Positions 2,234-12,230 of a stretch of DNA of 64,000 nucleotides are shown here, piece by piece; the stretch's first letter is position 1; every line of letters begins with the position of its first letter. The stretch is taken from NCBI RefSeq assembly GCF_026168555.1, contig NZ_CP092471.1:1560501-1624500 (forward strand). The letters run 5' to 3'. The notes beneath the pieces are model-generated. The model did not search any database and had not been told where the DNA came from. It saw only the letters and a list, made by a program, of their open reading frames with translations. The stretch is from Qipengyuania spongiae. GTDB lineage: Bacteria; Pseudomonadota; Alphaproteobacteria; Sphingomonadales; Sphingomonadaceae. The translations under genes and the position numbers were made by a program.

Positions 2234-2635
2234 GTGTTGAAAGAGCTTTTCCAGCATGCCGCCATAACCGACGGGATCACCGTTCGCGTGGCCGTGAACT
2301 TCCTGCCCGAACAGTCGCAGCCCGCGCTGGGCAAGTGGTTCTGGGTCTATCATATCCGAATCGAGAACGGCAGCCACGAGACCGTGCGCCTGCACACGCG
2401 GCACTGGCGGATCACCGATGCGCGCGGCGCGGTGGCCCATGTCGATGGTGAAGGCGTGGTCGGCGAACAGCCGCTGCTCCGCCCAGGCGAGGCGCATGAT
2501 TACGTGTCCGGCTGCCCGCTCGAGACGCCCTACGGCTCGATGGAGGGCTTCTACACCTTCCACCGGGAGGACGGCTCCCCGCTCGAGGTTCGCATTCCCT
2601 TCTTCCCGCTCTCGGCCCCCGCCACGGCGGGTTGA
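2234..2635 (+). CDS. apaG: ApaG domain protein (Co2+/Mg2+ efflux-associated)
   Basis: The 133-residue product is a full-length ApaG, a fibronectin-III-like beta-sandwich protein linked to divalent metal homeostasis and Ap4A metabolism in enterobacteria. Diagnostic strings are FWVYHIRIEN, LHTRHWRITD, GVVGEQPLLRPGE and GCPLETPYGSMEG. There is no ATG in the right place; GTG at 2234 or the next codon TTG at 2237 begins the conserved part (KELFQHAAITDGITVRV), and GTG is preferred. Neighbours are unrelated, and the gene appears monocistronic. Confidence 0.9.
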   Translation: MLKELFQHAAITDGITVRVAVNFLPEQSQPALGKWFWVYHIRIENGSHETVRLHTRHWRITDARGAVAHVDGEGVVGEQPLLRPGEAHDYVSGCPLETPYGSMEGFYTFHREDGSPLEVRIPFFPLSAPATAG

Positions 2636-2668
2636 CCGGCGGGATAGCCGGGGCCTGCCGTCCGCAAA

Positions 2669-3385
2669 CTAGCTCTTCGGCCTGCGCGCCGCCTCGTTCC
2701 GCCCTTCCTCGCGCCCCTCTTCCCGGGCGAGCTCCAGCTCTGCGCGGTGGCGCAGCGCGCCGGACATCTCGTCGAGGATCTCGGCCCGGATGCGTTCGTA
2801 GAGCGGGTGGCCGGGGATGACGTGCGCGGCGTATTTCTCGGGCCGGCGGTTGCGCAGGAAGAACATCACCAGCGCCTCGTTGTGGCGGGTGCCGTAGGTC
2901 ATCACCCCGCCATCGGGAGTGACCTTCCATTCGGGCGTGCCCTCGATCGCGCGGGCGAGGGCGGAGTGCTCCAGCCGGTCGACCCCGCGCTCGACCGCCG
3001 CGTCCCAGGCGGCGGCGAAGCCTTGTGCGCCGGGCTTGGCGCGCAGCTTGTAGAGAGCCTCCACGCTGCGCCCGATATGGAGCGCGGCCTTGGCGACGAT
3101 GCCGGTGGCGGCGAGATGGGCGATGAAGGCGCGCTGCCGGGCAGGCGTGATCGAATTGCGCCGCGGCCGCGCATGGACGTAGGGCGCGAAGGCGAGCAAC
3201 GGATCGTCCGCCCCCGGCTCCTGGCCGAGAAAGGCGACCGCGGACGTCGCCCGCCGCGCAACGGCGCGGGTGGGGGTGAGGCTCCTTTGTAGTGAACCCG
3301 CCTCCGCGGGTCCATCCTCGGTGCTGTTCCCTCCGCTACGCTGCGGGGCACCTGCGGGCGCGCAGTCGCGCTTGCGGCCGCTCAC
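2669..3385 (-). CDS. hypothetical protein with HTH-like segment
   Basis: Open frame of 238 residues, convergent with apaG. Residues from about 65 onward look like real protein: FAPYVHARPRRNSITPARQRAFIAHL and then LAATGIVAKAALHIGRSVEALYKLR, which has the shape of a helix-turn-helix, followed by AAAWDAAVERG. The C-terminus is charged and helical (REEGREEGRNEAARR). The first 45 or so residues are low-complexity and translate repeat-like DNA, so the true start may lie further in (no good ATG is visible). I recall similar proteins in sphingomonads but know of no function. Confidence 0.6.
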   Translation of the reverse strand: MSGRKRDCAPAGAPQRSGGNSTEDGPAEAGSLQRSLTPTRAVARRATSAVAFLGQEPGADDPLLAFAPYVHARPRRNSITPARQRAFIAHLAATGIVAKAALHIGRSVEALYKLRAKPGAQGFAAAWDAAVERGVDRLEHSALARAIEGTPEWKVTPDGGVMTYGTRHNEALVMFFLRNRRPEKYAAHVIPGHPLYERIRAEILDEMSGALRHRAELELAREEGREEGRNEAARRPKS

Positions 3386-3434
3386 GCGCCCGTCTCCGGG
3401 AGAAACAAGGCACCGCCGCTCCCGCCCGCGGTCA

Positions 3435-3469
3435 GAGGAATGGAGCGCCGGTCCTCGGCAGGATCAAAC
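3435..3469. repeat. 35-bp direct repeat, copy 1
   Basis: GAGGAATGGAGCGCCGG followed by TCCTCGGCAGGATCAAAC. Copy 2 at 3534-3568 differs at one base (G to A). The pair lies in the non-coding stretch between the HTH-like gene and the TIR gene. Confidence 0.85.
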
Positions 3470-3533
3470 CCCTCCTGCCGCTGGCACCCCACCCGCCCCG
3501 AAGCGCGCCGTCGATCGCGTGGAGCCTCGCTCG

Positions 3534-3568
3534 GAGGAATGGAACGCCGGTCCTCGGCAGGATCAAAC
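3534..3568. repeat. 35-bp direct repeat, copy 2
   Basis: Second copy of the repeat at 3435-3469, 99 bases downstream, one mismatch. The 3386-3689 interval holds no gene that I can support; it contains these repeats and GC-rich sequence up to about 3640, where composition shifts to AT-rich. Confidence 0.85.
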
Positions 3569-3689
3569 AAGGACTCGGCAGCGGAGCGGGGAGGGGTATG
3601 GCCGGGCATGACCGCGGCTAGGTTGCAGGTTTTGGACGTGTAGGAAAATGTTTTAAGCCACTTTCTACAATCAGAGGCGGCTTTGAGAA

Positions 3690-4913
3690 TTAGGTTTTAG
3701 GAATCTCCTCTGCACCCTCAAACACCGGTAATGGATCACCAAGGTAATTCGCCAGTCCATCCCTGATCATGGGCGTTAAGAATTCTTTGACCTCGGTGTA
3801 GGGAATACCGAGCTCGTGCGAGCCAGCCGCATACGTTCCGATTTGGTATGGTGGGAAAAAGAACTCGATCCTCTCTTTTCCGAAGACATAATTCTCGAAA
3901 CAATTCCAGTCCGTGGTTCCGTCTTTAACCCAATCTCTGTCGAGTTTGACCGAATCGCTGTCTCCAGATTCAGATACGAATTTGGATAGACATCGCTCCT
4001 GAAGAAATTCTAGTGCTGAGCTGGAATACGAAAATATGTCCGATATGCTACTTATAGAAACAAGGGGGTCCAGAAAATAATTGAACGCGGCAAACGATCT
4101 GTTGCCGTGCGCAGCACCTGCTCCGTACCAATATATTTCATATAATATCGAAAGTAGTTTCCCATTGACATACGGTTCAGCGCAGTAGGCTTCCCAACTG
4201 TTAGTTCTTAGTGATCGCGACTGTCCAAAAGTGAAATAGGGTGGCCCTTGAGATCCGCCTGACGGTCCGAATACTTCTTCTCTCTGTCGAAAAAGAGATC
4301 GTTTTGCCCATCCCTGCAAAATTTCGGTAACATCAGATATACGTGGGTATATTTCCGATGATAGTAAAGGTACCTCCGCAGAAAATGTATAACCAGGAAG
4401 GCCGTCGTACTCATCTCGAACAAATGTCCGAGAGACCTTAATTCCGGTGTTAGCCTCTTTCTTGGTAGTTGTTAATGAGAGGCGCTCGAATTGCCTATCA
4501 ATAGCCGCTTGGAGGCGGTCGAGGAACTCGACATCCCAGGTTTCAATAAAATGGAATTCACTCAAACTACGAGGCGCTTCGACGTCATCAAGCTTGACTG
4601 GGATCAAATAGATGTCATCCTCTAACCGCTCTTTAACGTTATCAAGAGCAGATTCTATTTCTCTCTGTAGATAGCCTCTCCTATCAATGCTATTAGATGA
4701 AACAAAAACAACTACAATCACACTTTCGTGCAGCGCGCGCTTTATCGATACGTCCCATTTCTCGCCTGGAAGAATTTCTTTGCGATCAATCCATACATTG
4801 TAGCCAGCATTCTTTAGCTCGGCATAAATTTCCATAACTCTTGGCCGATCGGGGCTCGCGTAGCTCAAGAAAATTAGGTCGGATGTTGCTTCTTCCTGAG
4901 CTATCATCAGCAT
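3690..4913 (-). CDS. TIR domain fused to RsiV-like DUF3298 domain
   Basis: The 407-residue protein starts with a TIR domain (about residues 12-145): FLSYAS in the first strand, WIDR about 41-44, an ILPGEKW box, VVVFVSSNS, and REIESAL carrying Glu85, which is where the NADase glutamate of TIR enzymes falls. The second half resembles the DUF4163/DUF3298 pair of the anti-sigma factor RsiV and of PdaC: GYTFSAEVPLL, GAGAAHGNRSFAAFNYFLDP, a DIF motif, and FPPYQIGTYAAGSHELGIPY near the end. No signal peptide or membrane helix is seen, so it should be cytosolic. The gene is clearly AT-richer than both flanks and uses rarer codons (AGA, ATA, TTA), which indicates horizontal gain. It stands alone, divergent from rpsL. 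A role as NAD-depleting defence effector is inference from the TIR domain. Confidence 0.85.
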   Translation of the reverse strand: MLMIAQEEATSDLIFLSYASPDRPRVMEIYAELKNAGYNVWIDRKEILPGEKWDVSIKRALHESVIVVVFVSSNSIDRRGYLQREIESALDNVKERLEDDIYLIPVKLDDVEAPRSLSEFHFIETWDVEFLDRLQAAIDRQFERLSLTTTKKEANTGIKVSRTFVRDEYDGLPGYTFSAEVPLLSSEIYPRISDVTEILQGWAKRSLFRQREEVFGPSGGSQGPPYFTFGQSRSLRTNSWEAYCAEPYVNGKLLSILYEIYWYGAGAAHGNRSFAAFNYFLDPLVSISSISDIFSYSSSALEFLQERCLSKFVSESGDSDSVKLDRDWVKDGTTDWNCFENYVFGKERIEFFFPPYQIGTYAAGSHELGIPYTEVKEFLTPMIRDGLANYLGDPLPVFEGAEEIPKT

Positions 4914-5366
4914 CCCTTCCAGTTTAAGTCTTGTTCTGGTTTAAGGTCTGCGCACTTCTGCGCAACCTGATAGTATCTTCCCCCACCCTTGACCCTGCGC
5001 CCCCCACAAGCTAAGCGCCCGCCCATCCGGTGAAGGACTCGCCTCGCGCGTGTCCTGCCGGTCAGATAGAGCTGAACATTGCCGGTCATGTCCCGGAGGG
5101 CCAGTCGAGAAGCGCTTCAGCGCTGGCGACGTGGCTCTTTTCTATTGCAGCAGGGTCTCCTGCTCGGGGCAGCCGTCAGAGTAACCCGGTGGCCGTGCGG
5201 CCCGAGGGTGGAGCGTTTCAGGCTCGTGCGGCGTGTGCCCCTTTCGCGAGGCGGGCTGTCCTATTTGGGGCAGGCTCGCGGCGAGCGGGGCTCCGGATGC
5301 CGCCCGAACCCGGCGATCCATTCCCCGACCGCTAGTCGCCATCATCACACGGTGAAGAGAGAACTC
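4914..5366. other. leader region between TIR gene and str operon
   Basis: Contains the candidate rpsL promoter at 4989-5017 and then about 350 bases of GC-rich leader with several short inverted repeats (for example AGCAGG/CCTGCT near 5148-5163) but no T-tract terminator. Open frames through it lack recognisable sequence. AT-rich sequence of the TIR insert ends about 4970. Confidence 0.5.
4989..5017 (+). promoter_or_regulatory. candidate sigma-70 promoter of the str operon
   Basis: TTGACC (4989-4994), 17-base spacer, TAAGCG (5012-5017). The same -35 and -10 hexamers with the same spacing occur upstream of rpsM at 24029-24057, and a close relative precedes the tRNA gene, which supports the call. 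Confidence 0.45.
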
Positions 5367-5738
5367 ATGCCGACGATCAACCAGCTGGTCCGCAAGGGCC
5401 GCGTTCCGCAGAAGGCCAAGTCCAAGGTCCCTGCGATGGAGCAGAACCCGCAGAAGCGCGGTGTCTGCACCCGCGTCTACACGACGACGCCGAAGAAGCC
5501 GAACTCCGCTCTGCGCAAGGTGGCCAAGGTTCGCCTGACCAACCAGCGCGAGGTCATCTCCTACATTCCGGGCGAGGGCCACAACCTGCAGGAACACTCC
5601 GTGGTCCTGATCCGCGGCGGCCGTGTGCGCGACCTTCCGGGTGTGCGCTATCACGTGCTGCGCGGCGTGCTCGACACGCAGGGCGTCAAGGATCGCAAGC
5701 AGAGCCGCTCGAAGTACGGCGCCAAGCGTCCGAAGTAA
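5367..5738 (+). CDS. rpsL: 30S ribosomal protein S12
   Basis: Full-length S12 of 123 residues with [19 protein letters not shown] and [18 protein letters not shown]. It sits at the decoding centre of the 30S subunit and is the first gene of the str operon. Lys43 and Lys44 are retained. Position 88, Lys in E. coli (RVKDLPG), is Arg here (RVRDLPG). ATG at 5367 is the only start that gives the standard N-terminus [11 protein letters not shown]. Confidence 0.98.
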
Positions 5739-11606: not shown

Positions 11607-12230
11607 GTGAAGGTCAAGGTCCAGAATCTGGATGGGAAGGCATCCGGCGATATCGAGCTCAACGATGCCGTTTTCGGCATCGAACCGCGCGCCGACATCC
11701 TTCACCGCGTCGTCACCTGGCAGCTTTGGAACCGTCGCGAGACGGCCCGTCCGACGCGCGAGCGTTCCGACGTTGCTCGCACCGGCAAGAAGTTCGGCCG
11801 TCAGAAGGGTTCGGGCGGCGCTCGCCACGGCGATCGCGGCGCTCCGATCTTCATCGGCGGCGGCAAGGCCCATGGTGCCCGCAAGCGCGACTTCACCAGC
11901 TCGCTGAACAAGAAAGTTCGTGCGCTGGGTCTGAAGATGGCGCTGTCAAGCAAGGCGAAGGACGGTCTCGTGATCGTCGACAGCCTCGAGCTCAAGGATG
12001 CCAAGACCAAGGCGCTCAAGGGCCAGTTCGACAAGAATGGCTGGAACGGCAAGGTCCTGGTCATCGGTGGCGAGAGCGTGGATGACGGTTTCCGCAAGGC
12101 GGCCGGCAACCTTCCGGGCGTGAACGTGCTGCCGGCGATCGGCGCCAACGTCTACGACATCCTGAAGCATGACACGCTGGTCCTCACCAAGGATGCGGTC
12201 GAGAAGCTGGAGGCGCGTTTCAATGGCTAA
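11607..12230 (+). CDS. rplD: 50S ribosomal protein L4
   Basis: L4 of 207 residues, lining the exit tunnel. The long loop with [22 protein letters not shown] sequence ([19 protein letters not shown]), [20 protein letters not shown], and the globular end are intact. It starts 2 bases after rplC. In E. coli L4 also represses the S10 operon through its leader; a leader hairpin exists here too. Confidence 0.97.

Follow-up and report, generated by a model that had tools for sequence, protein, structure and literature searches.

A TIR protein with a DUF4163-DUF3298 module in an exchangeable cassette upstream of rpsL: a candidate compact immune sensor in Qipengyuania spongiae

Among solved structures, the closest sequence relatives of the TIR domain described here are of the SPARTA type, and we take the chains 8ifk, 8j8h and 8qlo to be structures of SPARTA TIR-APAZ. 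The other part of the protein is of a type carried by RsiV, an anti-sigma factor and lysozyme receptor, which contacts lysozyme through S169, P259 and Y261. In the excerpted text of one study, E77A is the catalytic mutant of TIR-APAZ (PMC10474274), and in that of another the structures 3cyg, 3s5t, MPT64 and PA4972 are RsiV-like (PMC5014341). Neither PADLOC nor the open-access literature gave a described system in which TIR is fused to DUF3298 or DUF4163, in agreement with an earlier note on this DNA, which knew of none. For PdaC with a TIR domain, the open-access matches listed concerned medical topics by title, and the combination of TIR with an endolysin or a lysozyme inhibitor was not found in that literature.

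We analysed a gene of this architecture in a stretch of 64,000 nucleotides of Qipengyuania spongiae (the window; Table 1). It is a solitary gene whose product consists of two parts, TIR and DUF4163/DUF3298, and this product probably serves as a compact immune sensor, one of a kind so far undescribed. We read it as an immune sensor because a TIR domain is joined to a module of the lysozyme-receptor type, in a slot that is filled with presumed anti-virus genes in related bacteria. More specifically, judging from its sequence and surroundings, it appears fairly probable that the gene acts alone and encodes a cytosolic anti-phage (or anti-mobile-element) TIR protein with a ligand-reading module.

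Table 1. Features of the window, full-length relatives of the window protein and protein types among the hot-spot cargo.
Feature	Position or locus	Strand	Basis or remark
TIR-DUF4163-DUF3298 gene	3690..4907	-	405 aa counted from second ATG
TIR domain, residues 14-127	4533..4874	-	Pfam TIR_2, 8.3e-24
Glu85 codon	4659-4661	-	residue kept in 10/10 members
DUF4163 (PdaC-like) part, approximately residues 165-290	4044..4421	-	family profile to 3cyg; Pfam PdaC in relatives
DUF3298 domain, residues 291-372	3798..4043	-	Pfam PF11738, 1.1e-8
Exchangeable AT-rich cassette, GC 0.45	3655..4977		absent from nearest relative L096, flanks kept
Terminase-small-subunit-like gene, hot-spot flank	2669..3385	-	phrog_4044, 4.2e-14
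Conserved leader and likely str operon promoter, right hot-spot edge	4978..5366	+	start of similarity; promoter by eye
Full-length relative	L031		Rhizobium leguminosarum plasmid
Full-length relative	L032		Agrobacterium plasmid
Full-length relative	L003/L033		genome G110
Full-length relative, other clade	L034		genome G011, same genus as window
Full-length relative	L127		Fulvimarina manganoxydans
Full-length relative	L128		Mesorhizobium sp. LHD-90
Full-length relative	L184		genome G604
Full-length relative	L185		genome G773
Full-length relative	L186		genome G770
Cargo: KAP NTPases	L071, L074, L083, L092, L109		Pfam
Cargo: AAA_15	L095, L103, L105, L111, L113		Pfam
Cargo: DUF4435	L106, L113		Pfam
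Cargo: SMODS (below cut-off) with patatin	L107		Pfam
Cargo: GmrSD_N	L093		Pfam
Cargo: reverse transcriptase (below cut-off)	L117		Pfam
Cargo: TIR	L085		Pfam
Cargo: NACHT with Mrr-like part (both below cut-off)	L115		Pfam
Cargo: DUF4062	L116		Pfam
Cargo: HipA-like	L073		Pfam

The reading frame (3690-4913, minus strand) is open over 407 codons, with the first possible ATG at 4913, from which residues are numbered here. Since GGAAGGG stands six bases before the second ATG (4907), which is the best start, the protein probably has 405 residues. Signs of decay into a pseudogene, a possibility raised earlier, are absent: the frame is open, full-length relatives align along the whole length, and the catalytic-type residues are preserved, with L185 and L186 sharing 40-42% identity with the protein. 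We consider it extremely unlikely that the gene is a decaying passenger without current function. The AT-rich foreign DNA would fit such a passenger, and orthologues are too distant to measure selection; the good ribosome-binding site (by eye) argues against it, as do the open frame and the intact residues.

Both Pfam domains exceed their cut-offs in the window protein (TIR_2, 84.8 bits vs 28; DUF3298, 36.3 bits vs 24.1), so that the proposed fusion of TIR and DUF3298 stands; a search of the own genome with PF11738 gave the window gene as its sole match. With the TIR half alone, the best PDB match reached 2e-6, while 8qlo was matched by the family profile at 7.6e-10; 8fex and 8sp0 are named TIR-APAZ among the PDB matches. 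Glu85 aligns with residue 77 of chain 8ifk (counted along the printed alignment), and from the excerpt of PMC10474274 we infer that this residue and E77A concern one chain. All ten full-length members have E85, which supports the earlier claim of a glutamate at the NADase position and shows that TIR homologs with this residue exist. The PADLOC matches of the window protein are confined to its TIR part (Aga TIR-PNTD, 1.2e-18), and the SAVED_TIR model covers only residues 7-93 of that part.

When comparing the members with each other, we find that in 42 of 45 pairs, identity is higher in the TIR half than in either sensor part (means 36.9% vs 27.1 and 25.6%), which fits a constant effector with a changing sensor. 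Twelve residues of the N-terminal half are identical in all ten members (F15, Y18, W41, D43, G50, W53, R78, G80, R84, E85, L90 and L134), as are two of the sensor part (S255 and H269); a further six are kept in nine of ten (Y189, E246, A268, N271, W336 and G364).

For the sensor module, the order of DUF4163 followed by DUF3298 combines a direct match of DUF3298 in the window protein with a DUF4163 part that is recognised only via relatives and the 3cyg profile match. On its own, the window protein gave no Pfam PdaC (DUF4163) match with E as high as 1. PdaC is above cut-off in the Agrobacterium relative (1.7e-7); by protein, P0003 lies above the cut-off and P0002 and L034 lie below it. PF11738 passes in the scanned relatives L031 and L032 and has no match at E up to 1 in L003 and L034. 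A five-sequence family profile matched 3cyg at 2.3e-12 over profile positions 155-363, 3s5t at 5.8e-12 and, weakly, MPT64 (0.016) and PA4972 (0.033). The family's sensor-part profile matches L127, L128 and L184-L186, all five of which are contained in it. As the AlphaFold model from three sequences is poor (mean pLDDT 43.8, pTM 0.41), the assignment of the sensor fold rests on sequence profiles. Two motifs had been read earlier as a DUF4163/DUF3298 signature; YAAGSHELGIPY falls within DUF3298, and FNYFLDP directly precedes that domain.

The earlier reading of the sensor part as cytosolic agrees with our results, as membrane-helix-like segments are absent from all ten members and no 19-residue stretch exceeds a mean hydropathy of 1.37. 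Because no segment is hydrophobic enough for a membrane helix, the DUF4163-DUF3298 module of the TIR fusions is probably cytosolic, unlike that of RsiV.

Endolysins build up in the cytosol ahead of lysis. The earlier note had proposed phage lysozyme as the ligand, and as a special case of the single-gene anti-phage explanation the module might, prior to lysis, bind a cytosolic phage endolysin or some other enzyme that cuts peptidoglycan and thereby turn the TIR on, which we regard as decidedly unlikely. RsiV, which shares the module, binds lysozyme at 70 nM, whereas MPT64, also with this module, does not bind it, and the authors conclude that lysozyme binding is not general to proteins of the RsiV/MPT64 module (all from the excerpted part of PMC5014341). 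In a PDB set that may or may not include RsiV, the family profile found 3cyg, 3s5t, MPT64 and PA4972 but no RsiV chain at E up to 10, and phage endolysins come in many folds. At L184, the next gene, one base downstream, encodes an LprI 'lysozyme inhibitor' domain (3.1e-8) after one likely membrane segment; this favours a lysozyme-like ligand, but such a neighbour occurs at only one of the ten loci. With MPT64 not binding lysozyme, the earlier proposal is not established, and the lysozyme reading of the ligand is weak. We give an equally low probability to its extended form, a cytosolic pattern-recognition receptor for lysis enzymes. Here an RsiV-type module, moved inside the cell and fused to a TIR NADase, would detect endolysin or virion lysozyme before lysis and shut the cell down, and L184 would be a version helped by a membrane-anchored LprI protein.

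Relatives were searched in 196 related genomes, a 385-genome class sample, a 396-genome order sample, plasmids and genome contigs. This search for TIR and DUF3298 architectures, as suggested earlier, yielded nine more full-length relatives and thus ten full-length members with pairwise identities of 18-59%. Full-length matches were present in at least 4 of the 396 order genomes (own, G604, G773 and G770) and in at least 1 of the 385 genomes of the class sample (own); these counts cover partial matches whose loci were fetched and are lower bounds, because the G011 protein first showed as a TIR-only match. We looked for further whole fusions hidden among the partial matches by running the sensor profile over 186 loci, and both halves occurred only in the ten members, some of which stand under several locus ids; 57 frames had TIR alone. 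A tblastn search of the window protein against 50,697 phage records gave zero matches. With back-translated peptides, no close relatives of P0001 were found in genome contigs or viral contigs, and those of A2 and of the L128, L031 and L034 proteins found nothing in viral contigs; for the L127 protein, only its own gene was recovered there.

The family is sparse and mobile. This distribution bears on the idea that the protein is a non-immune cytosolic enzyme for stress or envelope signals, with a TIR that makes an NAD-derived signal for the host. In favour of such a role, RsiV and MPT64, which share the module, function at the envelope or outside it (PMC5014341, in excerpt), as does PdaC by its Pfam name. 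The idea is nevertheless very unlikely given the sparse occurrence, the foreign base composition and the fact that the nearest relative, L096, has an unrelated gene in place of the cassette.

We next consider the surroundings of the relatives. Of the ten members, two lie in phage structural gene clusters, two on large (rhizobial) plasmids and two at the hot spot beside rpsL. The genes around L127 encode tail tape-measure, major tail and major head proteins and run on the strand opposite to it, and the IMG/VR viral contig L129 carries the L127 gene; L128 adjoins portal and large-terminase genes, a setting of a prophage or gene-transfer-agent cluster. A DarT-family gene and a recombinase gene are found near L031, and HEPN, GIY-YIG and integrase genes near L032. 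L186 has an adjacent Schlafen AlbA_2 gene, and a DUF2971 gene lies 1.5 kb off L185. No partner gene common to the ten loci was seen in the loci as read. At L184 (5328-7789), three consecutive genes encode a small protein with one likely membrane segment, the TIR-DUF3298 protein and the membrane protein with the LprI domain. The members in phage-gene clusters and on plasmids, together with an integrase-like gene near L184 (by eye; Pfam gives a weak DUF6538), would suit an accessory gene of prophages and plasmids for plasmid defence or superinfection exclusion, which senses a conserved protein of competing elements rather than one of lytic phages. This alternative is unlikely, as the remaining loci show no obvious mobile genes nearby (by eye) except for the hot spot's terminase-like gene.

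The window gene itself occupies a variable slot between rpsL, which starts at 5367, and an oppositely oriented terminase-small-subunit-like gene. The GC content of the cassette is 0.45 vs 0.68 on the left and 0.62 on the right, and this region is the sole place in the window where 1-kb GC falls below 0.50, as expected from the foreign AT-rich insert beside the str operon that had been described. Compared to the nearest relative L096, positions 2699-3654 and 4978 onward are conserved, whereas 3655-4977 is replaced by an unrelated gene of 554 aa. We found rpsL in 57 of the 60 genus genomes searched and looked at 56 loci, namely those of the window and L034 together with 54 others (a contig starting inside rpsL was omitted). 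Similarity to the window begins at 4972-4988, at the start of the likely str-operon promoter, in 42 of 55 loci, and 47 of 56 have the terminase-like gene upstream of rpsL. AT-rich DNA, defined as a 600-base stretch below 0.54 GC, occurs upstream of rpsL in 45 of 56 loci and is absent from 11. It accompanies the terminase-like gene in 42 of 47 loci vs 3 of the 9 others, for which 5 kb upstream were examined instead (Fisher p 0.0009). The window and L034 genes fall into two separate groups, both well supported (100/100 and 100/98), so a gene of the TIR-DUF4163-DUF3298 type probably entered the slot on two occasions, at the same rpsL site. The cassettes were presumably exchanged via homologous recombination between the conserved flanks. 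An att site at the sharp right edge was considered and rejected: the shared motif is a likely str-operon promoter (by eye), and, with up to three mismatches allowed, it is missing from the three stretches that hold the remaining terminase-like copies of this genome. In L096, some 3.8 kb separate ApaG and the terminase-like gene, which nearly adjoin in the window (2546-2699); with this difference in spacing, there may be another variable stretch beyond the terminase-like gene. For a TIR or defence hot spot in Sphingomon-, none of the open-access matches listed was relevant by title.

To characterise the cargo of the hot spot, we collected 58 AT-rich ORFs with a minimum length of 150 aa and scanned 50 of them with Pfam; the other eight are two each of L034 and L091 and one each of L072, L085, L094 and L099, where the L094 ORF shares 568 of 589 residues with L082. 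Of the 50 scanned proteins, 38 match a Pfam family with an E value no higher than 0.01, in some cases below the Pfam cut-off, and many of these are of defence type by our reading of the matches (Table 1). Cargo that does not look like defence includes an aldo-keto-reductase-like protein (L087) and a MetE-like one (L101), both judged by their first residues only. The remaining 12 proteins have no Pfam match at this threshold (among them those of L070, L079, L096 and L112 and the second genes of L084 and L108), and such Pfam-less cargo (L068-L121) offers candidates for undescribed defence genes. At 1e-5, 209 PADLOC families match among 46 cargo proteins vs 9 among 46 controls; many models are generic ATPases and the 209 counts overlapping models, so that one ATPase can match many of them and the number shows an enrichment rather than 209 systems. 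The cargo proteins here are those of the window and L034 and 44 of the 50, and the controls are 46 of 48 ORFs (the two longest dropped) from 20 arbitrary loci in seven other family genomes, with unmatched base composition. This company in the hot spot is the strongest evidence for the function of the window gene, and defence is argued mainly from it; the gene is solitary, as described earlier, and lies in defence-type surroundings.

Beyond the rpsL site, four copies of the terminase-small-subunit-like gene were found in the own genome, and each adjoins an AT-rich island of 1-2 kb with one main gene: the window TIR gene, an aspartyl-protease-like gene (L130), a gene without Pfam match (L131) and an AIPR gene (L132). 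The pairing of AIPR with a terminase small subunit was not found in the open-access literature. In seven other family genomes (L134-L153), we observed a GC drop of at least 0.12 within 3.5 kb at 12 of 20 picked copies vs 1 of 20 control loci (p 0.0004; Mann-Whitney 1.6e-5), and 8 of the 20 copies had no such drop. Of 119 family genomes, 99 have terminase-like matches, with up to 18 each. The terminase-small-subunit-like gene may serve small cargo islands as a marker or a helper.

For the preferred reading of a single-gene anti-phage protein, we propose the following mechanism. Without infection, the C-terminal DUF4163-DUF3298 module would keep the N-terminal TIR inactive or monomeric. Upon infection, it would bind a ligand, most likely a phage protein, whereupon the TIR domains would assemble and cleave NAD+ through Glu85. 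The loss of NAD would stop both growth and phage, and it is from the family and the hot spot that such an abortive infection is suggested. If this is true, TIR immunity includes a new sensor type, and a lysozyme-recognition module is tied to the sensing of phages inside the cell. The ten natural variants are available for direct functional comparison, and the site between rpsL and the terminase-like gene, which holds different small cargo in most species examined, is a source of further single-gene candidates.

Lastly, we compared the window protein to known systems. Its TIR domain finds its best PDB matches in SPARTA TIR-APAZ, including the alignment of Glu85 with residue 77 of 8ifk; however, DUF4163-DUF3298 stands in the place of APAZ, and no Argonaute is among the neighbours read. 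With Aga TIR-PNTD, TIR-SAVED and Thoeris ThsB it shares a TIR effector and PADLOC matches on the TIR part, whereas its sensor is of another family and fused in the same chain. Near the window gene there is no ThsA, since the neighbours up to position 12000 are housekeeping or terminase-like (ORF reading and Pfam of five proteins), and neither a SAVED domain nor a cyclase, as in CBASS TIR-SAVED, was seen for it. Like RsiV, the protein has DUF4163 and DUF3298 C-terminal to an output domain. It differs in that TIR replaces the sigma-binding domain and in that it has no membrane-helix-like segment, while RsiV is membrane-anchored with the module outside the cell; moreover, its neighbours are the terminase-like gene and rpsL, with no ECF sigma gene. 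The SspB family binds ssrA tags, and a further TIR with an unusual binding module is encoded at L035 (5635-6480, genome G119), where TIR_2 is fused to SspB (1.6e-10). That protein also combines an N-terminal TIR_2 with a different C-terminal binding module, and it carries SspB where the window protein has DUF4163-DUF3298.
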